From positions 1-64,000 of the forward strand of contig WJLZ01000086.1 of assembly GCA_014728215.1 (NCBI GenBank): a stretch of 64,000 nucleotides of DNA, read 5' to 3'. Below, piece after piece: positions 34,634-63,840 of this stretch. This stretch comes from Chitinivibrionales bacterium. Lineage in GTDB: Bacteria > Fibrobacterota > Chitinivibrionia > Chitinivibrionales > WJKA01. A model generated the notes under the pieces. That model was not told the DNA's origin and ran no database searches. It saw only the letters and a program-made list of their open reading frames with translations. Position 1 is the first letter of the stretch, and every line of letters begins with the position of its first letter. The position numbers and the translations under genes were made by a program.

Positions 34634-34661
34634 AATTCTCTCCTCGGAATTATCGTGTGAT

Positions 34662-41425: not shown

Positions 41426-41445
41426 TGACAACAGTAATAATCCGG

Positions 41446-42315
41446 TTATTCGGTACTTTGATTATTATTTGGTGTATCCCCCGCCGGTGATACTTGGTCG
41501 GGAGAATTGTATATGCTTTCCCACACCCGCTCCACAAGGCCGGTGAGTTCGTCAAACTGTATCCCCAGCCTGCCGTCGGCAATACCCGAATTCGATTCGA
41601 TTATACACCCGCCTTTATCAACATGATCGTCGGGAATGATCTCGATATCGGCAACTCGCTCCGAAATGGGCATCCAGAAGTCTTTTTTGCCGGTAACCGT
41701 CTCGAGATCGTCCTTTGCCACCCGGACGGTCAATGTCTCTTTGTCGGCAATATAGGAGAGAGCTTTTTTCACTACTCCCAAAACGATATCTTCATTAAGG
41801 GTCAGTTCGGTCTGGATCACTTTTTTTGCCAGCTCAAAGGTGAATTTCAGAAGAACATGCTGGGCATTACCGTAAATCTCTTTTTGGGATTTTTCGAGAT
41901 TGGTAAATATTTCACTTACATTTTTTTCGATTTCCTCGAGGGTGGCTTCATAGGCTTCCTGCGCCCTTTTTTCACCAACTATTTCCCCCTCTTCTTTTCC
42001 TTCCGTGAGCCCCTTATTGAAGGCGACTTTTACGGCATTTTCGGCATTCTTCTTTGTTTTCCCGATTTCAGCTTTCAGAACACCGATCTGTTTTTCGAGT
42101 TCGATGATCCGTTTTTCATTTTCTTCAAATACCGGTTTTGATTTACCTTCAACATAAAAGCTGTCGAAAGCAACTTCACGTAAAGGGAACTGGTTGCCTT
42201 CTTCCTTTTTGGTTTTCAGGATTTTCCGGAGCCCGACAACAGCCGGATCCTTTGATTTGAGGAGATGATCGATCAGATTGGAAACTTCATTTTGAGAGAG
42301 TTCGCGGTCGGCCAT
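41446..42315 (-). CDS. fliH: flagellar assembly protein FliH
   Basis: 289 residues: an N-terminal variable part, a Glu/Lys-rich central coiled coil (about 80-150) and the conserved C-terminal domain (about 165-289: QTELTLNEDIVLGVVKKALSYI; DKGGCIIESNSGIADGRLGIQFDEL) that binds FliI as a negative regulator. A strong AGGAGG precedes ATG 42315. It sits between fliG and fliI with only short gaps. Confidence 0.93.
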   Translation of the reverse strand: MADRELSQNEVSNLIDHLLKSKDPAVVGLRKILKTKKEEGNQFPLREVAFDSFYVEGKSKPVFEENEKRIIELEKQIGVLKAEIGKTKKNAENAVKVAFNKGLTEGKEEGEIVGEKRAQEAYEATLEEIEKNVSEIFTNLEKSQKEIYGNAQHVLLKFTFELAKKVIQTELTLNEDIVLGVVKKALSYIADKETLTVRVAKDDLETVTGKKDFWMPISERVADIEIIPDDHVDKGGCIIESNSGIADGRLGIQFDELTGLVERVWESIYNSPDQVSPAGDTPNNNQSTE

Positions 42316-42326
42316 AAACTATCCTC

Positions 42327-43394
42327 CTAGACAATGACTTCTTCTTCTCCGCCGCGGCCGCTGATAATAATCTCACCATCTTCTTCAAGACGGCGAATTA
42401 CATCAACAATACGCTGCTGGACATCTTCAACATCTTTCAACCGCACCGGTCCCATATATTCCATTTCCTCCCTGATCATCTCGGAGGCACGTGAGGACAT
42501 ATTTCTGAAGAATTTTTCCTGCAGTTCTTCTGATGCGCCTTTGAGAGCCATCGACAGTTCTTTGGTATCGATTTCTTTCAGTACCCGCTGCATGGAACGA
42601 TCGTCAAGAAGCATGACATCTTCGAAGACAAACATGAGGTTTTTGATTTCGGTTGCGAGTTCGGGATTCTCCCGTTCCAGATTCCCGAGAATATTCTTTT
42701 CGGCGCCCCGGTCGACACTGTTGAGCATCTCTGCCACCGCTTTGACGCCGCCGACCCGGGAAACATCGCCGCCAAAAAGCGATCGCACCTGTTCGGCCAG
42801 GACCGACTCCACCTGGGTCAAAGTGTCGGGAGAGATGGATTCCATAGTCGCGATACGGGTGGCCACATCAACCTGAAGTTCCTGGGGAAGGGCCGAAACG
42901 ACCGCCGCGGCATTCCCTGCCTCCATATGGGCAAGAAGAAGCGCGATTGTCTGGGGATGTTCTTTCTGGATAAAATTGACAAGCTGTTTGGGATCGACAT
43001 TTTCCAAAAGATTGAATCCGGTAGTCCGGATTGTCTGCTGCACCTTATCGAGTATCTCCCGTGCTTTGCGCGGCCCCAGAGCCGATTCCAGGATCTCCCG
43101 GGCGTAATCGATACCTCCCTGGGAGATATACTGCTGGGCCATAGCCAGGTTATGGAATTCCTCGAGTACCGCCTCGCGGACTTCGTTTGGAATATTTTCG
43201 AGCTTTGCGATTTCGGTTGAAAGCCCTTCAACCTCTCGCTCGTCAAGATTTTGGAATATATGGGATGAAGCTTCCGAACCGAGAGCCACCATAACAATGG
43301 CCGCTTTAGTCGGTCCCGATAGATTTGCCGTAAGCGAAGAGGGACTGTTCTTTTCGGAATTGCTGTACTTTTCTTTATAAAATCCTTTTGCCAT
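42327..43394 (-). CDS. fliG: flagellar motor switch protein FliG
   Basis: 355 residues, containing all three FliG domains: an N-terminal part binding FliF, the middle EHPQTIAL motif, and the C-terminal torque domain with MFVFEDVMLLDDRSMQRVL and the charged helix (DDRSMQRVLKEIDTKEL). It ends with the RRLEEDGEIII strand typical of the family. GGAAGAA precedes ATG 43394. It transmits stator force to the rotor and helps set rotation sense. Confidence 0.97.
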   Translation of the reverse strand: MAKGFYKEKYSNSEKNSPSSLTANLSGPTKAAIVMVALGSEASSHIFQNLDEREVEGLSTEIAKLENIPNEVREAVLEEFHNLAMAQQYISQGGIDYAREILESALGPRKAREILDKVQQTIRTTGFNLLENVDPKQLVNFIQKEHPQTIALLLAHMEAGNAAAVVSALPQELQVDVATRIATMESISPDTLTQVESVLAEQVRSLFGGDVSRVGGVKAVAEMLNSVDRGAEKNILGNLERENPELATEIKNLMFVFEDVMLLDDRSMQRVLKEIDTKELSMALKGASEELQEKFFRNMSSRASEMIREEMEYMGPVRLKDVEDVQQRIVDVIRRLEEDGEIIISGRGGEEEVIV

Positions 43395-43536
43395 ATAAAA
43401 ATTCTTCCATGATAAGAAAAAGAGCCCTGGTGAGGAACAAACTGTATGCGTCTATGGTTCTTCTCTAATTATATCCTTTTCGCATTAATATGTATAGCAT
43501 CAATACCGATAATTTTATTGATGCAGGATATCACGT

Positions 43537-45069
43537 TCAGGACCGTGACATAGGCGCCGGCTCGTGGAGCCATTGCCTAATTATCGATGCGATATTGGTC
43601 GGCTCTTCTCTCGACAGCATCTCCACCCGTTCCAGAAGTTCAGAGCTTTTCTTGAGGTCTTCGGGAACCTCTTCAGTAACTTCCTCGGGCAGTCCGAAAG
43701 TTTCCACCGACGGCACCGGTGGATTCATTGCCTCAGCGAGTGTCCTGGCCATCGATCGCAGGAACAGGAGAAAGAGGATACCGATAATAAAAAACATCCC
43801 GATTTTGACATACTGGATGATCCGGTCACGCATCTCCTGCTTCCGCATCTCTTCTTGCTGACGACGGAGGTATTCGTTATCGAACTGTAAATTAGTAACG
43901 ACGATTTCATCTCCCCGGGCCAGATCGTAGCCAACGGTGTTTTTCACTATGTCCTCAACCGCCTGAACCTCTTCGGCGGTACGGGCGACATACACGTCCT
44001 CGCCATTTTCATTTTTGTCATATTTACCGTCTACAGCAACCGAAATTGTCAATCGTTTGACATTACCAACTTCGGTAACAATATGCTCGATCGTCTTGTC
44101 GATCTCGTAATTTGTCAAAGAACGCTCCCGCAGACGATCGCCGTCGGGTGCATTTTTAGTATTGTCATCGGTCCGTTCTTCAGAGCGGATAACCCGGCTT
44201 TCCGGATCGTACATTTCCAGGGTCCGTTCGACCATATCGAAGTTCATATCCACGGCTACCTGAGTCTTTGCTTTACCCGGTCCCAGAACGCTGACCAGCA
44301 TGCCCTCGGTCTTTTTTTCGAGATAACGTTCGACTTTCTGCTGTAATTCAAGATTTCGTGACGATGCCAGGGCGGTTTCATCGCCCGCAAAGGGGTCTGA
44401 AAGCAGTTGACCATTATAATCGATAATCGAAATGTGCTCCGGATCGAGCCCTTTGACACTTGCCGATACCAGATAGGAAATGCCCCGGACCTGACCAGGA
44501 GTAAGATTCTGCCCCGGAGTGGTTTTGATTACTACCGAAGCTTTGGCCTCTCTCTGATTATCAAGAAATATCGTGGGTTCGGGAGTAACGATATGAACTC
44601 TGGCCGATTTGACCTCCTCGAGCCCCTCAACGGTACGCTGCAACTCTCCCTCCAACGCACGTTTTGCATTGAGTTTCTGAGCAAAATCGGTCATAGCAAG
44701 ATTAGTCTTATCGAATAGCTCATAACCGATACCGTGAGATTTGGGAAGTCCTTCCTTGGCAAGAGCCATCCGGGCTTCATGGAGCCTTTTCTGTTCGACC
44801 AGAATCGCCTTGCCGTTATCTTCAATCTTATAGTCGTATCCACTCGCTTTGAGCATATCAGTCATGGCGCTCGCCTCATCAACCTCCAGATCGGAATAGA
44901 GAAGCTGATAGCCCGACATTGAAGGTGTTCCTCGCGACCATATTAACAGTCCTGCCAGACCGATAATTGTAAAGGCGATCAGCGATGTAGTGATTATTTT
45001 CTGCTGGAGCGATAACTTCTGCCAGATAGCGGTGAGTTGTGAAATAAGCTGTTTGAAAAACTCAGCCAT
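43537..45069 (-). CDS. fliF: flagellar MS-ring protein FliF
   Basis: 510 residues. One TM helix near the N-terminus (about 24-46) and one near residue 435, flanking the periplasmic YscJ/FliF-type domains. Motifs include YQLLYSDLEVDEASAM, ALEGELQRTVEGLEEVKSARVHIVTPE and ISYLVSASVKGLDPEHISIIDYNGQLLS. The acidic C-terminal tail binds FliG. AAGGGG precedes ATG 45069. Founding component of the basal body. Confidence 0.96.
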   Translation of the reverse strand: MAEFFKQLISQLTAIWQKLSLQQKIITTSLIAFTIIGLAGLLIWSRGTPSMSGYQLLYSDLEVDEASAMTDMLKASGYDYKIEDNGKAILVEQKRLHEARMALAKEGLPKSHGIGYELFDKTNLAMTDFAQKLNAKRALEGELQRTVEGLEEVKSARVHIVTPEPTIFLDNQREAKASVVIKTTPGQNLTPGQVRGISYLVSASVKGLDPEHISIIDYNGQLLSDPFAGDETALASSRNLELQQKVERYLEKKTEGMLVSVLGPGKAKTQVAVDMNFDMVERTLEMYDPESRVIRSEERTDDNTKNAPDGDRLRERSLTNYEIDKTIEHIVTEVGNVKRLTISVAVDGKYDKNENGEDVYVARTAEEVQAVEDIVKNTVGYDLARGDEIVVTNLQFDNEYLRRQQEEMRKQEMRDRIIQYVKIGMFFIIGILFLLFLRSMARTLAEAMNPPVPSVETFGLPEEVTEEVPEDLKKSSELLERVEMLSREEPTNIASIIRQWLHEPAPMSRS

Positions 45070-45186
45070 ACGCTTCCCCTTGACCTCCGTGTATTAAAAA
45101 AATTGAATGCTCCCGATTGCACCCCGGGACAGGTAGAGTAGTGAGATGGCTATGCAATTCTCCCGACTCTCCACGACACTAAATCT

Positions 45187-45492
45187 TTACAATCTCATTC
45201 TCATTACTTCCTGATAAGCATCCATTACTTTGTTCCGAATTTCCATCATCATATTGAATGCTACATTGGCTTCTTCAACTGCGCTCATCACCTGATGAAC
45301 ATCGGTAATTTCGCCGGCAACCATTTTTTCGATCGACTTATCAGCCTTAACCTGCATATCGTTGACATCTTTCATGACGCCTTTGAGAGTATCTTTAAAG
45401 GTTGGCGCATTTTTATCTTTTGCATGGAGCCGTGAAGCCCTGCCGGCTTTTTGGCCGTCATCAACCGGGCCGATCGGATTTATCTGGGCCAT
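45187..45492 (-). CDS. fliE: flagellar hook-basal body protein FliE
   Basis: 101 residues, ending in the conserved VMSAVEEANVAFNMMMEIRNKVMDAYQEVMRMRL helix. FliE joins the MS ring to the proximal rod. AGGAGG lies at good distance before ATG 45492. It sits upstream of fliF as usual. Confidence 0.95.
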   Translation of the reverse strand: MAQINPIGPVDDGQKAGRASRLHAKDKNAPTFKDTLKGVMKDVNDMQVKADKSIEKMVAGEITDVHQVMSAVEEANVAFNMMMEIRNKVMDAYQEVMRMRL

Positions 45493-45609
45493 GTGGTGCC
45501 TCCTGAAAGATTGATTTGCTCTCGGAGAAGTCTCTTTATCATTATATTATTTATATCGTTTGTTGCAGCAATTTTCTATAGATATATTTAAATTACCTTC
45601 ATTTTACAT

Positions 45610-45873
45610 TTATGCGTATCCATCAAAATTGTTTCCCAGTATTTTTGACGGCGTCGTGGACCGCAATTGCCTTCCGTAACCGGCAACTGTCGGGGTTTTC
45701 TGAGGATGTTCTGCCGCCACACTGTTGCTTAACCGCTCAAGTGCACCTTTTAACTGGGTCTGTTTGTTTGCCTGAATTCCGGCCAGTCCGGGATTCCGAG
45801 CCTTCGCTGCGTTCGTTAGCGCCATAAACCGGGCCCACTGGTCGGATCCGCTATTAATCGATTGAATACTCAA
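45610..45873 (-). CDS. small conserved-position ORF in flagellar operon (unknown)
   Basis: 87-residue frame with no recognised domain, hydrophilic and rich in Gln, Ser and Asn, beginning MSIQSINSGSDQWARFMALTNAAKARN. It starts with TTG 45873, yet a strong AAGGGGGAT Shine-Dalgarno sequence stands 7 bases before it and overlaps the flgC stop, so translation is well supported. It fills the space between flgC and fliE, where no gene is normally found. A small rod/export-related accessory protein is possible; this is inference only. Confidence 0.65.
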   Translation of the reverse strand: MSIQSINSGSDQWARFMALTNAAKARNPGLAGIQANKQTQLKGALERLSNSVAAEHPQKTPTVAGYGRQLRSTTPSKILGNNFDGYA

Positions 45874-45878
45874 AAGTC

Positions 45879-45887
45879 ATCCCCCTT
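45879..45887 (-). promoter_or_regulatory. strong Shine-Dalgarno sequence deciding a TTG start
   Basis: On the minus strand AAGGGGGAT precedes TTG 45873 by 7 bases. No ATG in frame lies at comparable distance, so this sequence is the main reason to accept the small flagellar-operon gene and its rare start codon. Confidence 0.6.
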
Positions 45888-46395
45888 ATAACTGTGATGC
45901 CTGCTGGAGCATAGCTTTCATGGAATTGAATGCAGTCACATTGGCTTCATATGCTCTGCTCGCAGCTATCATATCAGTCATCTCTTCAACTACGTTCACA
46001 TTCGGCATCGCTACATAGCCCTTTTCATCGCTGTCCGGATGCGAGGGATCATATACCAGCTTTGCCTCACGACTGTCTTCTCGAATTTCCGCAACCTGAA
46101 CGCCGTTGCCGAAAAACCGTTCATCCCGAGGAAAATTATTTGCGGGAACGGGAAGATGATTTATCAGATTTGAAGTGCCCTTCAATCCCTCTTTTTTGTT
46201 TATCAGCCGTGTTTCTTTGGTGTCGGTCCCCGATTCGAAAACCACATACTGACGCCGGTAGGGTCCCCCCTTTGCAGTACGGGTTGTCTCGATATTGGCC
46301 AGATTCGATGAAATGACATTCTGACGGATTCGCTGGGCCCGAAGCCCCGATGCGCTTATTCTGAGTCCTGAAAATATTCCCCCAATTAACGGCAT
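45886..46395 (-). CDS. flgC: flagellar basal-body rod protein FlgC
   Basis: 169 residues. N-terminal FSGLRISASGLRAQRIRQNVISSNLANIETT is the shared rod/hook signature; the C-terminal PNVNVVEEMTDMIAASRAYEANVTAFNSMK is the FlgC/FlgG-type ending. The middle YVAMPNV is typical. Proximal rod component, exported through the flagellar system; it follows flgB after 67 bases. Confidence 0.96.
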   Translation of the reverse strand: MPLIGGIFSGLRISASGLRAQRIRQNVISSNLANIETTRTAKGGPYRRQYVVFESGTDTKETRLINKKEGLKGTSNLINHLPVPANNFPRDERFFGNGVQVAEIREDSREAKLVYDPSHPDSDEKGYVAMPNVNVVEEMTDMIAASRAYEANVTAFNSMKAMLQQASQL

Positions 46396-46462
46396 ATCAC
46401 ATTCCTTCTCTTAATGACCATCTTCAACATTTCAACTCTTCAACTTTCATTTGACCATCGAC

Positions 46463-46888
46463 CTACTGTATCTGAAGGCTTCTGGCCTGCACCGCTGCAC
46501 TCAATTTTTTCAGTGCTCCTTTGGTAAAACGGATACCAAAATTATATAAAATCTGATTTTCTGCCAATTTAGCCATCTCAGAGTCGATATCGACATTATT
46601 TACTCCACTGGAAAGCGTTGGATCAACCGGCCGTTCTACCAGGGGATTGACCCGGGAAATGTCTTTTCTTCCGATTGCCAGATGTTTTGATTTGGTTTGT
46701 GTACCTTTTAATCGTGTCTTATCCAATGCTTCTCGAAGATGTTCTTCAAAGCTTACTTCGAGGCGCTTGAATCCGGGAGTGGTGGCGTTGGCGATATTAT
46801 TGGCGATAACCCGGGCTCGAAGCATTCCTGCATCAAGACTTTTTTGAACCGATGGGTAGGCTGTTTTTTGAAGAATTCCATTAATCAT
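46463..46888 (-). CDS. flgB: flagellar basal-body rod protein FlgB
   Basis: 141 residues with N-terminal SLDAGMLRARVIANNIANATTPGFKRLEVSFEE and the C-terminal SEMAKLAENQILYNFGIRFTKGALKKL segment, both diagnostic. It is the first gene of the flagellar operon and is preceded by a sigma-54-type promoter 57 bases or more upstream. Confidence 0.96.
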   Translation of the reverse strand: MINGILQKTAYPSVQKSLDAGMLRARVIANNIANATTPGFKRLEVSFEEHLREALDKTRLKGTQTKSKHLAIGRKDISRVNPLVERPVDPTLSSGVNNVDIDSEMAKLAENQILYNFGIRFTKGALKKLSAAVQARSLQIQ

Positions 46889-48397: not shown

Positions 48398-50272
48398 ATG
48401 AATAAACGTAGAAATTTAACAATCGCTCAGACAGCTCCTGCGCTGCTCTTTTTCATTCTCGCCTTTCTCTATATTTATTTCAAAATTGATCCCCGGCTGG
48501 TCTACCACTGGTGGCATGGATTCAATCTTGATTTCTCCCATACACTTCAATACCTGGCACAAAGCCTTCAAAATCCCGGTGGATTTGTCAAATATACTTC
48601 ATCGTTGAGTCTTCTCTATCTCATTTCACGGTTCCAGGGTTCTCTTATTTTAACGGGTTTGGCGGTACTGCTCTATTTATCAACCCGAATGCTGTTCAGA
48701 AATACCCGCAATGGTCTGCAATACTTAGTTACCTTTACACCTTCAGTCGGTTTTATCCTGATACTGAATCAATATAATTACCCTGTATCGATGGCTCTCA
48801 AATGGAGCATTGCCGCACTGAGCGCTTCGGTTTTTATCCACAGCAAAGTGGAGAAAATCTCCATTCGTACGCTTTTCTTTATCCTGGGCGGTTGTGTCAC
48901 GTTTTATCTTGGAAGAAGTGCGCTGGTGCTTTATTCCTTTCTTTGTCTCTTTTTCTCTTTGCGGAAAAAAGAGTGGCAGGCTGCGGTGATGGTCACACTT
49001 GTCGGCCTTATAATACCGGCAATTGTGGGTCATTTTGCCTCCCAGAACACACTTGACGCCTACCGCTATTATTTCGGTTTATGGCACAGGGGAGAAGAAA
49101 TTGTTCCAAGTAACATTCGTACGGTTTCGATAATTCTTCCCCTTACCGCGTTTTTGATTCTGGTTGGGATCATTTTCGACCGACCATTCAAACCGTTAAA
49201 AACCGGTGTGCCGGGCGACGTTTTCAACCGTCCTATTGTAAGGACATCACTGTTTGAAGCAGTACTCTTTTCCTTTTTATTAATTCCCGGTTTTTTTCTG
49301 TTTCGTCCCGATGTAAAACTGGGCCTTCAATTCGATTACGCGGCCTATTATAATGAATGGGATGTGATTACCACCACTGCCCGGCGTATACCGGATTCCG
49401 GCTTTCACCCCTATACATGTGCGGATATCAACCGGGCACTCTATGAATCGGGAAGGCTCCTCGATGAAATGTTCACCTTTCCTCAAAACCCATCGGGGCT
49501 ATTTGTTCCCCTGCGTCATTATACTCAAAAAGATACGGTTCTCGTTCCTCCGCTTATCGGTGTGCGGAATGCGGAGACCTGTCTCAGGCTCGGCCTGGTG
49601 AACCTTGCCGAGCAGATGGCCCATGAACTGCTCTCGGCCTACAGCGATTATCCCTCGCTCTACCTTCTTCTTGCAAAGGTAAATATTATTAAAAAAGAGA
49701 CGAGAGCTGCACGGGTATTTCTCAAGCATCTCCTGAGCCTTGAGAATGACCGTTATCGACGACAGCAGGCTGAAGCCATGCTCACCCGCCTGGACCAGGA
49801 TTCACTTTTTACCGATGACCCCATGATTGACCGCATACGAACAATGTCTCCCGACAGCGATTATGTCCGGATCGAACGATGGCCCGAGGAAATGCTTACA
49901 GACCTGCTCAAGTCGAACCCTGAAAACCGGATGGCTTTTGAGTACCTGATCGCCCACTATCTCCAGACAGGAAAACTGGAAAAGGTGATGAACCACATTA
50001 AAGAATTGAATGTCTTTTTCCCTGAACAATATCCCCGCCATGTCGAAGAAGCACTGGTTGTTTACAGATACGGCACAGACAGAGAATTGCCTCCTGCCGC
50101 AAAGAAACCATCGAGTAACGTTGTTGAACGATACGAAAGGTTCCGCAAGATCCTCGATCACAGCAGACGGCACGGTTTAAGTGCAGTTAACGCAGCAAGA
50201 GCTGCCGCCGAAGAACATCTTGAATCCTATTTCTTCTACTTCTCACTCGGTAATGTAAGAAAAGCGTTATGA
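48398..50272 (+). CDS. multi-TM membrane protein with TPR-like C-terminal half (DUF6057-like)
   Basis: 624 residues. About ten hydrophobic helices fill residues 10-310 (for example ALLFFILAFLYIYF, ILGGCVTFYLGRSALVLYSF). A soluble C-terminal half of TPR-like helical pairs follows (about 350-620: ETCLRLGLVNLAEQMAHELLSAYSDYPSLYLLLAKVNIIKK). The overall design resembles DUF6057 proteins of Bacteroidota, which as far as I recall lie beside PD40-type lipoproteins, as here. Function unknown. The stop overlaps the next start by four bases (ATGA), so the pair is translationally coupled. Confidence 0.75.
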   Translation: MNKRRNLTIAQTAPALLFFILAFLYIYFKIDPRLVYHWWHGFNLDFSHTLQYLAQSLQNPGGFVKYTSSLSLLYLISRFQGSLILTGLAVLLYLSTRMLFRNTRNGLQYLVTFTPSVGFILILNQYNYPVSMALKWSIAALSASVFIHSKVEKISIRTLFFILGGCVTFYLGRSALVLYSFLCLFFSLRKKEWQAAVMVTLVGLIIPAIVGHFASQNTLDAYRYYFGLWHRGEEIVPSNIRTVSIILPLTAFLILVGIIFDRPFKPLKTGVPGDVFNRPIVRTSLFEAVLFSFLLIPGFFLFRPDVKLGLQFDYAAYYNEWDVITTTARRIPDSGFHPYTCADINRALYESGRLLDEMFTFPQNPSGLFVPLRHYTQKDTVLVPPLIGVRNAETCLRLGLVNLAEQMAHELLSAYSDYPSLYLLLAKVNIIKKETRAARVFLKHLLSLENDRYRRQQAEAMLTRLDQDSLFTDDPMIDRIRTMSPDSDYVRIERWPEEMLTDLLKSNPENRMAFEYLIAHYLQTGKLEKVMNHIKELNVFFPEQYPRHVEEALVVYRYGTDRELPPAAKKPSSNVVERYERFRKILDHSRRHGLSAVNAARAAAEEHLESYFFYFSLGNVRKAL

Positions 50273-51819
50273 AAAAAATACTTCTGATAATCCGATTGCT
50301 TACTGTTACAGCGGCCCTGTTTATTTTTATTGCCCTTTCGGGATGCTCAGATCCTGTCGACCGAAGCCGGAAGACCGGCGCGGCTCCTCACATCATGCCC
50401 GACTATACCGATATAACTATCCCGCCGAATATTGCCCCACTCAATTTTACAGTCAAGGAACCGGGCACGAATTTTATGATCCTTTTTTCATCACAAAAGG
50501 GTGAGGGATTTACAATTAAAAGCACAGATAATAAAATCTCTGTTCCAGAGAAAAAGTGGCATTCCTTTTTGAAAAAAAATAAAGGAAACGATTTTGCGGT
50601 CACGGTTTATGCCAAAGATACGATCTGGAAGCAATACACTCCCATAACCAATCATATAGCCCAAGAACCGATCGACCGGTATCTCGCCTATCGCAAACTG
50701 AAACCGGCCTACCATCGGTCGGGTACTCTGATTTTATCTCAGCGCAATCTGGAATCTTTTAGTGTCACCCGCCTGCTTCATAACGATTCGCTGGAAAAAG
50801 GTGCGGGATGTATGAACTGCCATACCTTTCTCAACAACAATCCCGACAAGATGAGCCTTCACATACGTGGTGCCTACGCAGGGACCATGCTTTTAAATAA
50901 TGATTCGCTTTTCAAAGTGGACACCCGTACCGAACGGAACAAGAGGCCCGGCGCCTTTGCGTCATGGCATCCGAGCGGGAGCATGCTTGCCTTTTCCATC
51001 AACAGTGTCCGCCAGCTCTGCCATACCGCCCGTCAAGAAGTCCGTGAGGCTTTTGATGTCGATTCAGATATTTTTCTCTATTTCATCGATAACAAAACCG
51101 CCCTGTCTCCTCCCCTTCTGAGGCAACCCGACCGCCTTGAAACATTTCCGGCCTGGTCTTCAGACGGGAAATGGCTTTATTTCTCCAGCGCACCTAAATT
51201 ATGGGATGATTTTGGGGATGATGAAAGAGAAATTGTTGACTATGTGGAAAAGGTGCAGTACGATTTGATGAGAATCGGATATGATCCCGCGACAAAAGAA
51301 TGGGGTTCGCTCGATACGCTGCTCAGCGCAGACGCCACCGGCATGAGCATTGTCGAACCACGCATATCACCGAGCGGAAAGTTTCTTGTTTTCTGCATGA
51401 CACCCTGGAGCTGGATGCCCTCTTTCTCCTCCCGGTCGGACCTTTATATTATGGACCTGACGAATATGATCTATAAAAAGCTCGAATGCTCCTCGGAAGG
51501 TGCTGAATCATGGCACTCCTGGTCGAGTAATTCCCGATGGCTTGCTTTCAGCTCGAAACGGTATGACGGTCAGATTCTGCGTACCTATTTCAGCTATATC
51601 GACACCGGCGGCACTGCCCGAAAAGCATTCCTTCTCCCCCAGAAAAAACCCGATCATTATGAATCGAGTATCTGGATGTACCATCTTCCCGAACTGATCA
51701 CCGGCGCAATACCGATAACCGAAAAAGAACTGCTCCAGGCCATACGTTCATCCCGCCTGCAGGAAAGCGAAGCCGTCACCGGCGCAACAATAAAAGCGCC
51801 AACCGGACCGAGGCATTGA
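50269..51819 (+). CDS. lipoprotein with c-type heme motif and PD40/TolB-like beta-propeller
   Basis: 516 residues. Lipoprotein signal ALSG-C26; a single CMNCH c-heme motif at residues 181-185; then WD40-like PD40 repeats (SWHPSGSMLAFSIN; PAWSSDGKWLYFSS; EPRISPSGKFLVF; HSWSSNSRWLAFSS), a partial propeller. The heme lies on the periplasmic side and could carry electrons or sense a ligand. The gene ends with AVTGATIKAPTG. It is coupled to the upstream multi-TM protein and probably forms a complex with it. Confidence 0.82.
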   Translation: MKKILLIIRLLTVTAALFIFIALSGCSDPVDRSRKTGAAPHIMPDYTDITIPPNIAPLNFTVKEPGTNFMILFSSQKGEGFTIKSTDNKISVPEKKWHSFLKKNKGNDFAVTVYAKDTIWKQYTPITNHIAQEPIDRYLAYRKLKPAYHRSGTLILSQRNLESFSVTRLLHNDSLEKGAGCMNCHTFLNNNPDKMSLHIRGAYAGTMLLNNDSLFKVDTRTERNKRPGAFASWHPSGSMLAFSINSVRQLCHTARQEVREAFDVDSDIFLYFIDNKTALSPPLLRQPDRLETFPAWSSDGKWLYFSSAPKLWDDFGDDEREIVDYVEKVQYDLMRIGYDPATKEWGSLDTLLSADATGMSIVEPRISPSGKFLVFCMTPWSWMPSFSSRSDLYIMDLTNMIYKKLECSSEGAESWHSWSSNSRWLAFSSKRYDGQILRTYFSYIDTGGTARKAFLLPQKKPDHYESSIWMYHLPELITGAIPITEKELLQAIRSSRLQESEAVTGATIKAPTGPRH

Positions 51820-56084: not shown

Positions 56085-56570
56085 TCATCGTAATTTCTCG
56101 ACTAACCTCTCGACCAGTTCATCAACAGCCGAATCAATCACCGGACTTAACCCTTCACCCAGATACTCGGGGATTTCGATAGTTACGCCCCATATTTCCC
56201 ACTCCGGGAAGGGCGAGACAATATCGAGTTTGCGAAGGGTTTCCATTACCGAGGCAATATCGGTCTGATGGAGTGAGGGAGCAAAGGCGCGGGAGGCTTT
56301 TTTTACAATGCGAATATGCCCGGGTTTTGCGCCTGCCAGCGCATCAAGAAAAACAAACCGGCCAGCTTTTTCCAGAAGGTCGGCAATCTCATAAATATCA
56401 CCACTTAAAATGTGGAAAAAGATGTCATTTCGCCTGCCTAAACGTTCCTGCAAACGCCGAACCGCAATCACCCCCGCGGCGTCATCACCGACAAGTGTGT
56501 TACCTATTCCGATTATACCCAGAGGGGTATTTTTTTTATCAGGATGAAGGCTTGTAGAGTTTGACCTCAT
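56085..56570 (-). CDS. [NiFe] hydrogenase maturation protease (peptidase M52)
   Basis: 161 residues (ATG 56570; GTG 56576 also possible, with AGGAG upstream of both). It starts GIIGIGNTLVGDDAAGVIAVRRL, the HycI/HyaD/HoxW signature with the nickel-binding residues (the Asp in GDD, Asp of FLDAL, His of SLHQTD). It trims the C-terminal peptide of the large subunit after Ni insertion; the substrate is encoded two genes upstream. It overlaps the ferredoxin gene by 32 bases and is the last gene of the operon. Confidence 0.94.
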   Translation of the reverse strand: MRSNSTSLHPDKKNTPLGIIGIGNTLVGDDAAGVIAVRRLQERLGRRNDIFFHILSGDIYEIADLLEKAGRFVFLDALAGAKPGHIRIVKKASRAFAPSLHQTDIASVMETLRKLDIVSPFPEWEIWGVTIEIPEYLGEGLSPVIDSAVDELVERLVEKLR

Positions 56571-57276
56571 AAACACATTGCTCCTGGCCTCTGCTTGCTT
56601 TTGTTAAACGGGGACGAATTCCGCTGATTTTGTTAAAATACCCCGCAAGATAATTGTAAAAGAGCACGCAGAGATCTCCCCCCAGCGAAATCCCTTCACG
56701 GCCGCAGAGATCACGAATAAAGCATTTGCCCACAGTGAGGGTCAGTTTATCATCGCTCAACTCAGGCTCTATCTCCCATGCTCCGGAGAACATATGTACG
56801 ATCATTGCAAGAACATCCTCTACCGATTCGGGGTGTTGATAGCGGGGTAGCTGCGTTGCCAATGATCTTCCGGCCATTGTTCCAACCGCAGGCAGACTCT
56901 GGCCGAGAGTCTGTTTAAGCACCGAAGCCACCGAAAGCAGACGCATACCAAGGTCTTCTTCAGCCTGTTTCAGGCTTTCCTCTTCTTCGATTACGTTATA
57001 AACAAGAGCAGTTTCACCGGTCTTTTTTGCAAGGGCAAGGGCCTTGGGATCATGATAAAAAACCTGTGACATCCTGATATTGGAATGGGATATTGCCGTG
57101 GCAGGGCATATCTCCGTGCAGCTTAAACAGCCAAAACATTCATGCGCTTTCACTACCCCGGGAACAGCATCGGATTCACTGTATTCAAATACCTTTGTCG
57201 GACAGATATCGGCACACAGGGCACAGCCCACGCATGCCTTTTCATCGATAGTAATCTCTGGAGCACTGTTATTCAT
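56539..57276 (-). CDS. 2x[4Fe-4S] ferredoxin fused to a V4R-like domain
   Basis: 245 residues. Two ferredoxin motifs at the N-terminus (CVGCALCADICP and CFGCLSCTEICP, residues 15-65). The C-terminal part (about 110-245) has the Cys-containing pattern VGKCFIRDLCGREGISLGGDLCVLFYNYLAGYFNKISGI…QCVYEVKL, which resembles V4R (4-vinyl reductase) domains that bind small hydrophobic ligands. The ferredoxin part most likely carries electrons from the hydrogenase small subunit; the V4R part could gate this by ligand binding (inference). Coupled to the large-subunit gene by an ATGA overlap. Confidence 0.8.
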   Translation of the reverse strand: MNNSAPEITIDEKACVGCALCADICPTKVFEYSESDAVPGVVKAHECFGCLSCTEICPATAISHSNIRMSQVFYHDPKALALAKKTGETALVYNVIEEEESLKQAEEDLGMRLLSVASVLKQTLGQSLPAVGTMAGRSLATQLPRYQHPESVEDVLAMIVHMFSGAWEIEPELSDDKLTLTVGKCFIRDLCGREGISLGGDLCVLFYNYLAGYFNKISGIRPRLTKASRGQEQCVYEVKLYKPSS

Positions 57277-58679
57277 TCCATCACTCCCCTTGTCAATGTA
57301 TTAACAATTGTTCCTGCTTTTCGCACCTCCACTGTCATGGGCATTTTTCCCGCTGCATGCGTTGCACAGGCAAGACAGGGATCGAAACACCGTACGGCGA
57401 ATTCGATCCCGTTCATCATGAGCTCATCACCACCCTGCTTTTTCATTTCCCGCGCCGTCAGGGTAAGTGCGGTATTAATAGCATCATAGTTATTCTGTGT
57501 CGCAACAATAAGGTTGGCGCCGGTAACTTTACCCTTACTATCGGCGGTATAGTCGTGTACCAGAATTCCACGGGGGGCCTCAATCGCCGCGATATACCGT
57601 CCCTCCCCTGGAGTAACGTTTTCGAGTAATATATCACCGGAGGGCAACTCCGAAGGGATAGCCGCGATTCGTTCTGCACAATGGACCATTTCAATTATCC
57701 GCGCTTCAATATTGTCCAGGACACAAAGGCGGGGGGTTCCGCTGCTTTTAAACTGTTGCATGAGTTCGGAAGCCCGGGGTGTCGAGAATGAATCATTGAC
57801 ATTCATCCGTGCAAGGGGGCCCACAAAATATTCCTGTTCCCGCTCACCTTTCAGATGCACCGATTTCATATAAGAACCCGACATAACATGCTCGATAAAA
57901 TGATCGGCGTATTTTTCCGCTTCAAAAATCCGGTCCTCATTCCCGGCACTATCACAAACCCGAAGAACGCCTTCACCAAAATCAACTTTACCGTTGCTGG
58001 TAATGGCCAGCGAATAATAATCGAGTATGGTTGCATCCCGAAGAGATTCAAGCCTGGCGATCAGCTCGATTAATGGTGTATGGAGATCCATTAAAATTTT
58101 GAGCGCTTCGCTCCCCCACTCACGGATTTTATCCAGTTCTTCACCGGTTGGTTGGGATGCAATTCCGCCGGGGACAAGGGTTACCGGATGAACGCCCCTT
58201 CCTCCCACAATTTCAACAATCCGTTGACCGATACTTCGAAGGCGCAGTGCTTTTCTGGCCAGCTCGGGATTGGAAGAGAGCAGGTGGAAGATGTTTTTCT
58301 CCTGCGGAGGGGCATCGATTCCCCTCACGATATCCGGCCCTAGCAACACAAAGGTACTCAAGGCATGAGAGTGGAGGATGTGGCCGGCGTACAGGAGTTC
58401 ACGAAGCAATTTCGCTTTAAGCGGAGGAATAATCCCCGCGCCATTTTCGATAGCGACAACTGATGCCAGGTGATGAGCAGCCGGACAAACACCGCAGATA
58501 CGTCCGGTAACAAGGGGCATTTTAACAAGCTCCATGTTTTCGAGCAGTTTTTCGAATCCCCGGATTTCCAGTACCTGCAGTCGACCCGCCGTGATTTCAT
58601 CGTTATCATTCAGGTCCAGAATCACCCTGGCATGGCCTTCAATCCGGGTGATCGGTTCGATTTTTATCTGTTTCGGCAT
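57273..58679 (-). CDS. [NiFe] hydrogenase large subunit (group-3-like)
   Basis: 468 residues carrying the Ni-Fe(CN)2CO site. Proximal ligand pair RICGVC (Cys62, Cys65) and distal pair DPCLACATH (Cys435, Cys438) are intact. Sequence following His441 is a 27-residue C-terminal peptide, as expected for a subunit matured by the M52 protease encoded two genes on. ITRIEGHARV at the start and SHALSTFVLLGPD agree with cytoplasmic group 3 (Mvh/Hox-type) enzymes rather than membrane-bound group 1. Function: reversible H2 activation. No diaphorase or Hdr subunit is encoded here. Confidence 0.96.
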   Translation of the reverse strand: MPKQIKIEPITRIEGHARVILDLNDNDEITAGRLQVLEIRGFEKLLENMELVKMPLVTGRICGVCPAAHHLASVVAIENGAGIIPPLKAKLLRELLYAGHILHSHALSTFVLLGPDIVRGIDAPPQEKNIFHLLSSNPELARKALRLRSIGQRIVEIVGGRGVHPVTLVPGGIASQPTGEELDKIREWGSEALKILMDLHTPLIELIARLESLRDATILDYYSLAITSNGKVDFGEGVLRVCDSAGNEDRIFEAEKYADHFIEHVMSGSYMKSVHLKGEREQEYFVGPLARMNVNDSFSTPRASELMQQFKSSGTPRLCVLDNIEARIIEMVHCAERIAAIPSELPSGDILLENVTPGEGRYIAAIEAPRGILVHDYTADSKGKVTGANLIVATQNNYDAINTALTLTAREMKKQGGDELMMNGIEFAVRCFDPCLACATHAAGKMPMTVEVRKAGTIVNTLTRGVME

Positions 58680-58696
58680 TATGTCTCCTTAATATT

Positions 58697-59605
58697 TTAC
58701 TGTGCCCATTCTCTTATTTTTACTGCAGGCTTTTTGTACATGACCGGTGATGCCATTGCATAGGCGTAATAGGTCCTGGCTTCATCTTCGATATATTGCC
58801 TGATTTCCTGTTCCTCTATACCGGTAAGCATGCTCATTCGCCGTGCGATCATGGTCCGCATATCGAGATGGGGTTCGGTAATAATATCTGTCGACGGTCC
58901 TGCGCAACCGCTGCAGGCCACCCCCTTGTTCGGGCATTGAGCAAGACAGCGTTCCATGGTAACGGATCCCATGCAGACAACCCCCTGGCTCAGAAAACAA
59001 ACAGTGTCATCCGCTGCAGTCACATTTCCTTTTTGTAATGCAACAGGCGAAACCTTTTTCATCGTGCGCTCACATCTGGAGCAAACGGTCTTTTGAACCA
59101 TTGATTTTTTTTCGGGTGATAAAAGACCGGTAATTGCCGAAGCAATCCAGTATGGATGAGGTGGACAACCGGGAAGATACCGGTCGACAGTTACGATTTC
59201 ATCGATTGGAACCACACTCTGTTCAAGCTTTGGAGCATTACTGTCGGGCCATTCCCCCGGGGCATTGGTCATTCCCGCTCCATATGCTTTTTCCAGTACC
59301 GAATCACCCCGGTAAAGCCAGCCCACCCCCGAAGGGCCTCCATACACAGCACAGGTTCCGAATGCGATAAGTGTTTTGACGCTCTCACGCATTTTGATGC
59401 ATGCCGCACGATCATGTTCGCTCCGAATAGCGCCTTCAACAATGCCGACATCGGCCCGGGGATACTCCCTTTCATCCATCAAAACGGGAACCCGGACAAA
59501 TTCCACTGAGTCAGTAAGGTTAATAAGCTTTTCGTGCAAATCCACCACCGCAACATGGCAGCCGGAACATCCCGAAAGCCATTCGGTAGATATCTTAATT
59601 TTCAT
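58697..59605 (-). CDS. [NiFe] hydrogenase small subunit
   Basis: 302 residues, no Tat signal, so cytoplasmic. WLSGCSGCHVAVVDLHEKL holds the first proximal-cluster cysteines (Cys13, Cys16); IAFGTCAVYGG and LPGCPPHP supply the others. The C-terminal half has further cysteines (CSRC; VCFLSQGVVCMGSVTMERCLAQCPNKGVACSGC) giving medial and distal clusters as in MvhG-like subunits. It overlaps the V4R gene by 11 bases and precedes the large subunit. Confidence 0.95.
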   Translation of the reverse strand: MKIKISTEWLSGCSGCHVAVVDLHEKLINLTDSVEFVRVPVLMDEREYPRADVGIVEGAIRSEHDRAACIKMRESVKTLIAFGTCAVYGGPSGVGWLYRGDSVLEKAYGAGMTNAPGEWPDSNAPKLEQSVVPIDEIVTVDRYLPGCPPHPYWIASAITGLLSPEKKSMVQKTVCSRCERTMKKVSPVALQKGNVTAADDTVCFLSQGVVCMGSVTMERCLAQCPNKGVACSGCAGPSTDIITEPHLDMRTMIARRMSMLTGIEEQEIRQYIEDEARTYYAYAMASPVMYKKPAVKIREWAQ

Positions 59606-60089
59606 TTTTCCCCTCCAGTATAAGTTCTTTCAGGCAGGCATTCGGTCCTGCATGAACGATCTCGAGCGTTGCCTTGGTATTGTTCATTACCTTTTCCATG
59701 GCGCCTGCAAATACCCCGTGGGCCATGTAACACAATGACTGTTTCTGCTCGTGGGAATACCGGAAGAGGGCATTTCTCACCATACAGGTATGGAATACCA
59801 GTCGGATTTTTTTCTTTCCTTTTTCTTCGATGATAACATCATCATTTTCTCCCTGAAAAGGCTCGAACTCCCAGACGATGCCCCTTTTCGCAAGTGCTTC
59901 ACGAAGGATACCGATCGCCTGTATCGGATCATTGGTTTTTCCACTGGCTTCCGTGGCTTCACTGCCGAATTTCTTGCCTGCCAGCGAACAGATGGAAAGA
60001 CTTCCTTTACCAAGATTTTTTTCAGATGCGCTGGCCAGGGCACCAACGAAGTACGCTACATTGTGAAGCGTTCCGAGTTCATTTGCCAT
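59595..60089 (-). CDS. stand-alone V4R-like protein
   Basis: 164 residues from ATG 60089 (AAGGAG 10 bases upstream; the open frame extends further but that part overlaps the preceding gene and reads as low-complexity). The C-terminal HTCMVRNALFRYSHEQKQSLCYMAHGVFAGAMEKVMNNTKATLEIVHAGPNACLKELIL matches the V4R/4-vinyl-reductase pattern 'C..…G…G…G…C'. V4R domains bind small molecules in regulators and enzymes. It lies between three roadblock-like genes and the hydrogenase small subunit, so it may link signalling and enzyme (inference). Confidence 0.72.
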   Translation of the reverse strand: MANELGTLHNVAYFVGALASASEKNLGKGSLSICSLAGKKFGSEATEASGKTNDPIQAIGILREALAKRGIVWEFEPFQGENDDVIIEEKGKKKIRLVFHTCMVRNALFRYSHEQKQSLCYMAHGVFAGAMEKVMNNTKATLEIVHAGPNACLKELILEGKNEN

Positions 60090-60106: not shown

Positions 60107-60445
60107 TTATTCTTCGTTCTGTTGAATCGACTGAAGTTTCATGAGCACATCCCCGATAACCATATGCCTGTTTCCTGCAACGACGAAAATCATATTTTTT
60201 CTCCGGGAAATAATCATTGTCCCATGCTTGAATTCGAGAAGGATCCACTGTAGTTCTCGGAGTCCCAGCCCCTGCCCCATCCCTTCGGATGCCATTGCAC
60301 AAATGGCGGATACCGCCGCGACATGCTCAGGATCGGTCGTTCCGGCGTTAAGGGCCCCCAGCAGGAAACCATCAGAGCCAACAAGATAAGCCCCGAGCAC
60401 CCCGCGGGTTTCAATGAGTGTTTCGAGGTTCGACAGATTATTCAT
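60107..60445 (-). CDS. roadblock/LC7 domain protein 3
   Basis: 112 residues, one complete roadblock/LC7 fold: LETLIETRGVLGAYLVGSDGFLLGALNAG, a central helix with AVSAICAMASEGMGQGL, then IILLEFKHGTMIISRRKNMIFVVAG and a closing helix. Such proteins usually act as dimers that regulate Ras-like GTPases (MglB type). It lies 17 bases upstream of the V4R-like gene. Confidence 0.85.
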   Translation of the reverse strand: MNNLSNLETLIETRGVLGAYLVGSDGFLLGALNAGTTDPEHVAAVSAICAMASEGMGQGLGLRELQWILLEFKHGTMIISRRKNMIFVVAGNRHMVIGDVLMKLQSIQQNEE

Positions 60446-60856: not shown

Positions 60857-61228
60857 TTAAATTTTTGTAATAAGGTCAATGATTGCGTTCTCCCAGGTAC
60901 CGATATCAGCGCCCCGCGCAAAGAGAACCATTATAAACCTACTCTCATTCAGTTCCCGGATATACATCGTTCCGTGATCAGTGGTCACTGAGAGTTTCTT
61001 TTCTCCGGTATCAGGCAGCACATCGAGATTACATCCTGCGGCAAACAATCCTGCGGCAAGTGAAACAATTTCCTCTACCGATGCAGCGCCGCGGACCTGC
61101 CATGCTGTCGGAAGCCCATCTTTGCTTACCTGCGCAACGGCTTCAATGGCTGGTGATAGCTCCATTATTGTCTCCAAAACCCGGGAAACATCACCCGATA
61201 GGCTGTTTTTCTGTTCTCTTTCTTCCAT
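60857..61228 (-). CDS. roadblock/LC7-like protein 1
   Basis: 123 residues of the same fold but more diverged: VLETIMELSPAIEAVAQVSKDGLPTAWQVRGAASVEEIVSLAAGLFAAG, then KKLSVTTDHGTMYIRELNESRFIMVLFARG. It may form heterodimers with the two roadblock proteins encoded downstream. The surrounding gaps are 27 and 17 bases, which fits an operon. Confidence 0.75.
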   Translation of the reverse strand: MEEREQKNSLSGDVSRVLETIMELSPAIEAVAQVSKDGLPTAWQVRGAASVEEIVSLAAGLFAAGCNLDVLPDTGEKKLSVTTDHGTMYIRELNESRFIMVLFARGADIGTWENAIIDLITKI

Positions 61229-61255: not shown

Positions 61256-62332
61256 TCAGGGATTACAGCTCTTGCATGGTGTCAAACTATCCCTTATGGC
61301 ATCGCTCCGTTTATCGAACCACTGCAAATGCTCCACCTTCGTACTCGTCAAGGTCAGGCATGATGGTACATGAAATGTGTTCCGTCCTGCAACACCCACA
61401 TAATTGCCCTGTGCTATAAGACGGGGAGGACTGAACCATGACTCCCTGATTTGAAGCGGTTTTTGTTCTCCGATAACTGATGTGCCCCATATTCCATTAA
61501 AGTTACGGGCGAGTTTGCCGAAGGCACGATGAGCGCAATCGTTTACAAAAGGTGCTATCACCGGCGCATTTCCACCCCGTGCCGACAGAGCGAGAATCAA
61601 ACCGGTGTTTTTTACCGGTCCGGTAATAACCGCGGCCTGGGCATTGGAAAGGGAAACACATTCAACTCTTTTAGCACCGGTTTCGACAATGGCCCGTTTT
61701 GTCCGGTGGTAAAACATACCAAGCTTGCCGGCAATTTCTTCAACGGTATCGGCATTGCCTGAAGATTCGAGGATAAAGCCGTCACTGTCGATGAGTGCAA
61801 CACAGTCGATAGCTTTTGAAAAACCTGCGGTCTTCCTGATTATATTTTTCTCGACCCAATAAATCTCTTCTTCACCGGGCTCCGGCCAGATTCGCATAAG
61901 CTCATTTAAATAATCCTTGAGGACATTCCGGCACCGGAGACTGAAATGATCGAGGATTGTAACCACCTGTTCTCTGATCGAATCATGGATACCTTTGGGC
62001 TTATGCAATTGCACACGGGAATAAAAGGGCAGCCCGCCTACCGTAAAGCAGGATACCGCTTCCCATGAATCGGCAGCGATTGATATACCGAACCGTTTGT
62101 TGGTTTTACTCGAGGGTGTAAAAGAATGAATTGCATTCCGGTCCCATCCGTCGGTAACCGATGTTCCGGGACATATGCCGACCAGGGGACCATAGTTTGA
62201 TTCGAGGGAGAGACCGATTACTCTTTGTGCCTGTGCCTCCCGAAGGGGATGTTTTACTTTTTCCGGAAGCCCGGCCCCATCGGTAACAATGGAAACTGCT
62301 ATTTTGGCAAGAAGACTTTCGGCTGCAGTCAC
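61256..62332 (-). CDS. roadblock-like protein with C-terminal Ada-type zinc-binding tail
   Basis: 358 residues. An N-terminal domain of unknown type (about 1-160); a roadblock-like domain (about 165-255: AIDCVALIDSDGFILESSGNADTVEEIAGKLGMFYHRTKRAIVETG); and an Ada_Zn_binding-like tail (about 310-358: VGVAGRNTFHVPSC…DSLTPCKSCNP) in which His321, Cys325, Cys353 and Cys356 would bind metal. The fusion is, to my knowledge, unusual. The start overlaps the upstream gene stop by four bases (ATGA), indicating coupled translation with the DUF4388/pseudo-GTPase protein. Confidence 0.72.
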   Translation of the reverse strand: MTAAESLLAKIAVSIVTDGAGLPEKVKHPLREAQAQRVIGLSLESNYGPLVGICPGTSVTDGWDRNAIHSFTPSSKTNKRFGISIAADSWEAVSCFTVGGLPFYSRVQLHKPKGIHDSIREQVVTILDHFSLRCRNVLKDYLNELMRIWPEPGEEEIYWVEKNIIRKTAGFSKAIDCVALIDSDGFILESSGNADTVEEIAGKLGMFYHRTKRAIVETGAKRVECVSLSNAQAAVITGPVKNTGLILALSARGGNAPVIAPFVNDCAHRAFGKLARNFNGIWGTSVIGEQKPLQIRESWFSPPRLIAQGNYVGVAGRNTFHVPSCLTLTSTKVEHLQWFDKRSDAIRDSLTPCKSCNP

Positions 62333-63840
62333 TCTGCACCTTTCCCTGGAAAGTCAGAGGTTAATGCCGTGATGTTCTTAAGCACCGGGGCTATATCATC
62401 GATGGAATCGACACGACAGGAAAGGCATTTATAGCGTACATTCACGTTTCCTGAATTTTTTCTAACAGCCTCTTCAACCGCATCCGGCTTCTCACAAAGA
62501 AGAACTGCGACAGGAACCTTCTTTTTGTCTAAATCCTGTACAAATGATGAAGCATTTTTGGTTTCAGTATAGAGAACGGTTGGAGACCCGTTGAGGATTT
62601 CACATTCTTTTTGCATCCCGATTCCCGCCAGATAGTAGCAGACTCCTCCGGTGCGCCCCAGGCGAATAACCGGAAACGAATTGCCGGATAGTTTGTCCGG
62701 TGAAAATTTTTTGGAAAGAACACCAAAGAAGGAAGAAAGCAATGAATCTTCTGCACGAACAGTAAGTATCATATTCCTTGCAGAAAGCATTTTTAAATCT
62801 GCGATATCAGCATTGCTCATCCATCGAAGCGGCAGCGTTCCCGGCTCAATACTTGCTACCATCGATTCGAGAGGATTCCGCGCAGAATGACCTTTTCTGC
62901 CGGAAACGATTTTTGATTGAGCTGCAGAGTGAGATTTTTTATTCTCTGCCGAAGATGAAACGGGCTCCGTGCGCTCAGCTCCAACATGTTCTTCGATGCA
63001 GTTCAATTTATCCAGATTTATGGTGGTCGACCAGCTTTTTGTCTGTGATTGATCGATAGAAAAAGCATAGGAGAGTAGAATCTGCTCCATGGGCCAGTGA
63101 AGGTTCCGGACATCGGGAATCCATGCATGTTTTATGACCCGCAGAATACCATGATTTAAGGAGAGAAGCTCATAGATCGCTTCGATCCCGATATGATGAC
63201 TCGACCATGCCGTTGTCGGGACACCGCTCTGAAAAGAGATACCGCCACGGATTCTCTCCAGACAATTGGTATCGTCAACGTCCTTTTCTACAATGCAGCC
63301 GTCAATTCTGACAACGGCACTCCATCCCCCTATCGCGATCATCTGGAGAACATCACTTACCGGAACATCTTCTATTCGTGAAGCCATTAGTGGGCGATAC
63401 AGGGATGTTCGTATCTTGGTGATATTTTCCCAATTGGATTCCCATCCTTCTTTAATATTAATAATGCCCGACAGGCGAAGACTCGAGGGAAGCTCAAGCG
63501 CTTCATGAGGCAATCTGGTTCCGTTCTTTAATGCCAGAGTAAAAGCATGATTTGGTGCACACTCAAGTGCCCGGGCACCAGCCTCTAGGAAGGAATAACC
63601 GGAGCGGATATCGCATAGTACAACACCACACTTTTGAAGGTTTGATTCCAGTGACTGGAAATCAGACAAATCACCGGAATATTTGACGGTACATTCCGCA
63701 TTGCTGTTTTCGACAAAGGTTGTAAACTGATTATAGAGTGCCTTCTCGGGAGAAAGAAGCAAGATATCGAACTCATTCGACATCGTAAGGGAATCAAATC
63801 CCGGCATGGGTGGAAAATTATCCGGATAACTCGTTTTCAT
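62329..63840 (-). CDS. receiver-like/DUF4388/degenerate Ras-like G-domain protein
   Basis: 503 residues; first gene of the hydrogenase operon. Receiver-like region (about 22-148; Asp77 in VVLCDIRS at the phosphoacceptor position). DUF4388/PATAN-like domain (about 150-240; VSDVLQMIAIGGWSAVVRIDG, ISFQSGVPTTAW, EAIYELLSLNHGILRV). Ser-rich linker (270-330). The C-terminal part (about 355-495) aligns by eye with the MglA/COG2229 GTPase layout: IRLGRTGGVCYYLAGIGMQ at the switch-II position, then VPVAVLLCEKPDAVEEAVR. But it has no P-loop, and GIGMQ and CEKPD replace GTPGQ and NKxD. ATG 63840 is used; ATG 63783 is possible. Confidence 0.6.
   Translation of the reverse strand: MKTSYPDNFPPMPGFDSLTMSNEFDILLLSPEKALYNQFTTFVENSNAECTVKYSGDLSDFQSLESNLQKCGVVLCDIRSGYSFLEAGARALECAPNHAFTLALKNGTRLPHEALELPSSLRLSGIINIKEGWESNWENITKIRTSLYRPLMASRIEDVPVSDVLQMIAIGGWSAVVRIDGCIVEKDVDDTNCLERIRGGISFQSGVPTTAWSSHHIGIEAIYELLSLNHGILRVIKHAWIPDVRNLHWPMEQILLSYAFSIDQSQTKSWSTTINLDKLNCIEEHVGAERTEPVSSSAENKKSHSAAQSKIVSGRKGHSARNPLESMVASIEPGTLPLRWMSNADIADLKMLSARNMILTVRAEDSLLSSFFGVLSKKFSPDKLSGNSFPVIRLGRTGGVCYYLAGIGMQKECEILNGSPTVLYTETKNASSFVQDLDKKKVPVAVLLCEKPDAVEEAVRKNSGNVNVRYKCLSCRVDSIDDIAPVLKNITALTSDFPGKGAE

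Follow-up and report, generated by a model that had tools for sequence, protein, structure and literature searches.

In a window of 64,000 nucleotides (i.e., the whole stretch of DNA analyzed here), we describe a ferredoxin-V4R fusion protein (Fd-V4R) that is probably the electron-receiving, signal-relaying subunit of an H2- or redox-sensing cytosolic group 3c-like [NiFe]-hydrogenase, although the mechanism is one that we infer. Both a complete group 3c-like hydrogenase and signaling genes are consistently found with Fd-V4R. The wider proposal of a new class of H2-sensing [NiFe]-hydrogenase, in which a group 3 core would be combined with an Fd-V4R/V4R relay of the TRAPP-ancestor fold and with interchangeable outputs (i.e., soluble chemoreceptors, Roadblock/DUF4388 proteins, or Ser/Thr kinases), is one that we regard as evenly balanced.

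The fusion is encoded in an operon of ten minus-strand genes that runs from 63840 to 56085 with intergenic distances of -38 to +40 nt, in the order DUF4388-like protein, 358-aa protein, three Roadblock-type proteins, V4R-like protein, small subunit, large subunit, Fd-V4R, and protease:

62329 to 63840, minus strand: 503-aa protein, weakly matching DUF4388 (E 0.004; counterpart at locus L120, E 2.6e-5)
61256 to 62332, minus strand: 358-aa protein, conserved in L120; its C terminus has a weak Ada-type Zn-binding match, with a final CxxC
60857 to 61228, minus strand: weak Roadblock-like protein (E 0.009, under the cutoff), syntenic in L120
60486 to 60839, minus strand: Roadblock/LC7 protein (Pfam E 1.2e-16)
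60107 to 60445, minus strand: Roadblock/LC7 protein (Pfam E 9.9e-12)
59595 to 60089, minus strand: stand-alone V4R-like protein, 164 aa, with both GxxxG pairs and Cys 102, 120, and 152
58697 to 59605, minus strand: [NiFe] small subunit, VhuG/MvhG-like, with 12 conserved Cys ligands, sufficient for three [4Fe-4S] clusters
57273 to 58679, minus strand: [NiFe] large subunit, VhuA/MvhA-like, with motifs L1 (RICGVCPAAH) and L2 (DPCLACATH)
56539 to 57276, minus strand: Fd-V4R fusion, 245 aa, an intact ORF with a ferredoxin, a linker, and a V4R/TRAPPC3-fold domain
56085 to 56576, minus strand: hydrogenase maturation protease of the HycI/HupD type (TIGR00072 E 7e-21, above the cutoff), overlapping the end of the Fd-V4R gene

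The gene for the 503-aa DUF4388-like protein is the probable first gene of the operon, and the L120 counterpart of the 358-aa protein gave a marginal Roadblock match. No histidine kinase was found among the ten genes. Of these genes, the one for the second V4R-like protein, those of the Roadblock type, and the one for the DUF4388 protein had been overlooked in a preliminary description of this DNA. Elsewhere in the window, we noted a protein that looks secreted and combines a single CxxCH heme motif with a TolB-like region (50269 to 51819, plus strand). By reading only, we also noted a flavodoxin-like protein with two [4Fe-4S] motifs that is EFR1-like (33863 to 34705, minus strand) and a 1583-aa protein that resembles a gingipain-like peptidase (C25 type) and ends in a sorting-type domain (29078 to 33829, plus strand).

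The best NCBIfam matches of the hydrogenase subunits were VhuA (large, 283 bits) and VhuG (small, 222 bits), both under the equivalog cutoffs. The nearest characterized enzymes were MvhG/VhuG for the small subunit (MvhG, 227 bits in PDB) and VhuA/MvhA, together with the Acetomicrobium HydL chain, for the large subunit. The 12 ligand Cys of the small subunit were kept in 31 aligned sequences (one of them truncated at its start), and the large subunit extends 27 residues past L2 in a C-terminal tail. With its NiFe motifs, its Fe-S ligands, and a tail requiring a protease, the enzyme appears complete for catalysis, and the host genome contains HypD. This catalytically complete appearance, with a tail that requires a protease, counts against a role as a sensor.

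Fd-V4R is composed of a 2×[4Fe-4S] ferredoxin (residues 8 to 63, Pfam), a linker (residues about 67 to 98), and a V4R/TRAPPC3-fold domain (residues 99 to 242). As the preliminary description had stated, two intact [4Fe-4S] motifs precede a V4R-like domain: the motifs were read at residues 15 to 26 (CVGCALCADICP) and 47 to 58 (CFGCLSCTEICP), and the fold match covers residues 99 to 242. The eight ferredoxin Cys were invariant in 24 of 24 homologs. In one Fd-V4R ORF (L067:10004-10576), only the first ferredoxin cluster and the V4R part were matched, pointing to a possible deletion or assembly error.

Given that the gene lies in the operon, that the ferredoxin and its V4R-like part (V4R-2) always adjoin the large subunit, and that Fe-S ligands are unbroken from the small subunit to the ferredoxin, Fd-V4R very likely serves as an electron acceptor linked to the hydrogenase. 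The earlier proposal of a hydrogenase electron carrier is retained to this extent, but Fd-V4R is probably not a metabolic carrier, because the neighbors, in every relative with enough flanking sequence, are signaling genes (including soluble chemoreceptor [MCP] genes that overlap or abut the hydrogenase operon) and because its C-terminal domain comes from a sensor/adaptor superfamily. We agree that the operon lacks diaphorase and heterodisulfide reductase genes, as none was present among its ten genes. The description of the fusion as the only encoded electron acceptor was an overstatement, since the genome holds other ferredoxin-type proteins.

The host genome (96% complete) was searched family by family. 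PF02662 (MvhD) and PF02754 (HdrB/CCG) had no match in it, and three other [NiFe] large subunits were detected, two of which have HoxF-type genes nearby. These data bear on an unlikely though serious alternative, in which the enzyme is a metabolic hydrogenase with a built-in carrier; Fd-V4R would then take electrons from H2 or supply H2 production by exchanging with soluble ferredoxins or oxidoreductases, and its V4R-like domain would be a docking or structural module. The complete NiFe site, the protease, the Fe-S ligands, the two-cluster ferredoxin, and an operon without diaphorase or Hdr in a genome where MvhD and HdrB were not found are all consistent with this alternative, and proteomic papers regard the Geobacter Mvh hydrogenase as possibly H2 evolving (PMC7894505). 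However, a metabolic carrier would leave the two V4R-like proteins and the constant signaling neighbors unexplained, in a genome already equipped with the three other [NiFe]-hydrogenases.

The C-terminal domain of Fd-V4R was assessed by structure prediction. The Fd-V4R model (AlphaFold, 41 family sequences; pLDDT, 87.5) matched BcsD, YslB, the V4R sensor domains of MopR/PoxR/DmpR, and TRAPP subunits in the PDB (Foldseek E 2.5e-5 to 1e-3), with H-NOX lower, and the model of the stand-alone V4R-like protein (pLDDT, 79) matched TRAPPC3, PoxR, and MopR. TM-scores to V4R structures were moderate and the models were built from shallow alignments, so that the assignment is one at the fold level. The alignment of the two family profiles spans 142 columns (E 1e-13), by which the C-terminal domain of Fd-V4R is judged to be homologous to the stand-alone V4R-like protein of the same operon. 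On these models, the label "V4R-like" is correct at the superfamily level. The Cys-containing V4R-like domain of the preliminary description was thus upheld by fold and superfamily but not by the Pfam V4R family (PF02830), which had no match in the fusion and gave only 12.4 bits for the stand-alone protein (gathering cutoff, 31). When the V4R profile was searched against PDB sequences, only chance matches were returned.

Three Cys of the V4R-like domain (C185, C203, and C234) were invariant in 32 of 32 sequences, and C191 was present in 24 of 32; three Cys were likewise kept in the stand-alone family (29 of 29). Of the GxxxG glycine pairs described for V4R/Bet3 in alpha2 and alpha5 (PMC2253512), the first occurs in both families (32 of 32 for the fusion); the stand-alone protein also has the whole alpha5 pair, of which the fusion retains one Gly. 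Four Cys in comparable regions of PoxR and Thorarchaeal TRAPPC3 bind zinc (PMC10933270). By analogy with these solved relatives, a structural metal site is the simpler reading of the Cys in Fd-V4R and is more likely than a redox or catalytic role, which we also weighed.

The sole Pfam match in this region was ATC_hydrolase (PF14196; residues 121 to 236; E 1.4e-4, under its cutoff). It was seen, weakly, in 20 of 41 Fd-V4R family members (best E 1e-5), and together with the invariant Cys it might suggest an ATC-hydrolase-family enzyme that uses ferredoxin electrons or a conserved Cys in catalysis. We consider this highly improbable: the match in the window falls under the curated cutoff, ATC hydrolysis is a nonredox reaction, and the Cys of V4R/TRAPPC3 relatives hold structural Zn (PMC10933270).

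In public genomes, a scan recovered the conserved order V4R, small subunit, large subunit, ferredoxin, and V4R-2 (here, the cassette) in at least eight phyla. The record labels were Fibrobacterota, Acidobacteriota, Fermentibacterota, Myxococcota, Thermodesulfobacteriota, Pseudomonadota, Ignavibacteriota, and Planctomycetota, most records being MAGs, for which single phylum labels may be wrong. The distribution is patchy, and only 4 of 168 genomes of the window's own phylum carry the cassette. The ferredoxin and V4R-2 are fused in most lineages with Roadblock neighbors and are adjacent genes, in unchanged order, in L050 to L066 and L069. In one genome (G039), two contigs together repeat the whole operon of the window, and a Ser/Thr kinase lies upstream. 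A tree of large subunits placed the cassette enzymes in one clade of 30 members (support, 100/100) apart from the Mvh/Vhu and Hox references (three Mvh/Vhu-type and few Hox), and the large subunits of MCP-linked cassettes formed one subclade within the tree. One row of this tree (L043) is the Hox enzyme of its record, the cassette enzyme of which (same record as L021/G003) was left out. In that genome, a Hox-type (group 3d) hydrogenase operon directly adjoins the cassette.

All loci with enough flanking sequence had a Roadblock/LC7, DUF4388, or MCP gene close by, and Ser/Thr kinases were found near some. In a blind Pfam scan, 78 near ORFs (within two places of the cassette) were compared with 78 far ORFs (five or more places away). 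Listed by the 25 commonest families, the matches for the near ORFs included Robl (12), MCP (9), receiver (4), DUF4388 (4), kinase (3), and CheW (1), whereas those listed for the far ORFs included one MCP and no Robl (a single Robl match could be hidden). In the Geobacter-type clade, a soluble MCP was located beside the cassette in 14 of 14 cases, and none of these 14 proteins had a transmembrane-like segment. MCPs are present in L058 and L065. At the ten loci measured, the start of the MCP gene ranged from 56 nt within the protease gene to 6 nt beyond it. In Geomonas paludis, CheW also lies directly upstream. At six loci (L044, L046, L048, L067, L022, and L041; Myxococcota, Magnetococcales, and Fibrobacterota), an OmpA-domain gene was next to Roadblock, often with a long coiled-coil gene, which suggests a link to the cell envelope. 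Our literature search on Roadblock or V4R with hydrogenases found no paper on this cassette; subscription papers (e.g., older Geobacter hydrogenase reviews) were outside its scope.

The same neighborhood data would fit a metabolic hydrogenase on which the Roadblock, V4R, and MCP/kinase proteins act (i.e., in assembly, clustering, or on/off control) rather than one that they read out, and gene neighborhood cannot separate these two readings. We view such control or positioning as rather improbable. Dimers of Roadblock and TRAPPC3-like proteins are known to act as scaffolds for other regulators (PMC10933270), but CheW and MCPs with HAMP and signaling domains belong to the output side of chemotaxis and are not known as regulators of enzymes.

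The preferred sensor reading also has a point against it in the window itself, where the operon has no MCP and output would rest on the Roadblock/DUF4388 proteins. Elsewhere, Roadblock-type proteins serve MglA-type small GTPases. A search of the host genome for such a partner (PF00025) gave two weak matches only (512- and 793-aa frames), and none was identified. The window contains a run of flagellar genes (40109 to 46888, minus strand; FliI-, FliH-, FliG-, FliF-, FliE-, FlgC-, and FlgB-like by reading), and CheW-type genes occur on the same contig about 20 kb past the window (C86:84082-85093). With these flagellar and CheW-type genes, a taxis output is also possible in this organism, even without an MCP in the operon.

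Under the sensor reading, H2 would be split at the NiFe site, for which the operon encodes the catalytic motifs and a dedicated protease. Electrons would pass from the small-subunit clusters to the two ferredoxin clusters of Fd-V4R along a path suggested by the conserved ligands, and the redox state of the ferredoxin would alter the V4R-like domain. This domain may pair with the stand-alone V4R-like protein in a TRAPPC3/C6-like heterodimer, which would signal to neighboring output proteins: Roadblock/LC7 and DUF4388 proteins in the window operon and, elsewhere, soluble MCP/CheW in Geobacter-type clusters or Ser/Thr kinases in others. If the sensor reading is true, assigning enzymes to group 3c by the large subunit alone would falsely predict electron bifurcation in many bacterial genomes. 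H2 taxis would become testable in cultured Geobacteraceae, and V4R and Roadblock domains, which are related to components of TRAPP and Ragulator, would gain a concrete function in bacteria.

Among the closest known systems is the Mvh cluster of Geobacter sulfurreducens (GSU2416-2423), which is named after methyl-viologen-type hydrogenase and includes an MCP termed MvhV (PMC7894505, PMC8691401). Judging from other Geobacteraceae loci (L052, L056, and L066), which have the order V4R, small, large, ferredoxin, V4R2, protease, and MCP, this cluster is very probably of the same cassette type. Geobacter-type clusters have separate ferredoxin and V4R2 genes and a soluble MCP as output, whereas the window operon has a fused gene and Roadblock/DUF4388 proteins.

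Among other hydrogenases, the subunits are nearest to those of group 3c MvhAG/VhuAG (of MvhADG-HdrABC; i.e., VhuA for the large and VhuG/MvhG for the small subunit), with the small-subunit Cys pattern kept; however, the host genome has no match to MvhD or HdrB, and the cassette large subunits fall outside the Mvh/Vhu clade (three references). Unlike Hox enzymes (group 3d), the window operon lacks the HoxFU diaphorase, and its large subunit lies outside the HoxH clade. The regulatory [NiFe]-hydrogenases linked to a PAS histidine kinase (group 2b) resemble the cassette in the proposed sensing of H2 by a cytosolic [NiFe] enzyme but differ in hydrogenase group and outputs, and the window operon has no histidine kinase and retains the C-terminal tail and protease. 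[FeFe] groups C2 (putative chemotactic) and C3 (phosphatase linked) likewise tie a hydrogenase to MCP or Ser/Thr signaling (PMC5037454), whereas the window enzyme is [NiFe] by its L1/L2 motifs. With the V4R/TRAPPC3 (Bet3) superfamily and the MopR/PoxR/DmpR sensor domains, the Fd-V4R domain shares the fold, the alpha2 GxxxG pair, and Cys on the sheet and helices, but it is too divergent for the Pfam V4R cutoff, is joined to a ferredoxin, and is tied to a hydrogenase.

HydDB places H2 sensors in [NiFe] group 2b (2c, putative) and putative ones in [FeFe] groups C1 to C3, with none in group 3, which it assigns to cofactor-coupled metabolism and in which 3c is defined by the Hdr link (PMC5037454). 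The cassette hydrogenase is thus 3c only as nearest neighbor and is no member of 2b or C2/C3; on the sensor reading, it would work like a regulatory hydrogenase. The cassette is not wholly new, as the Geobacter Mvh cluster with its MCP had already been named; what the present analysis adds is the fusion of Fd to V4R, a second V4R protein, outputs of the Roadblock/DUF4388 type, and the swapping of modules across phyla.
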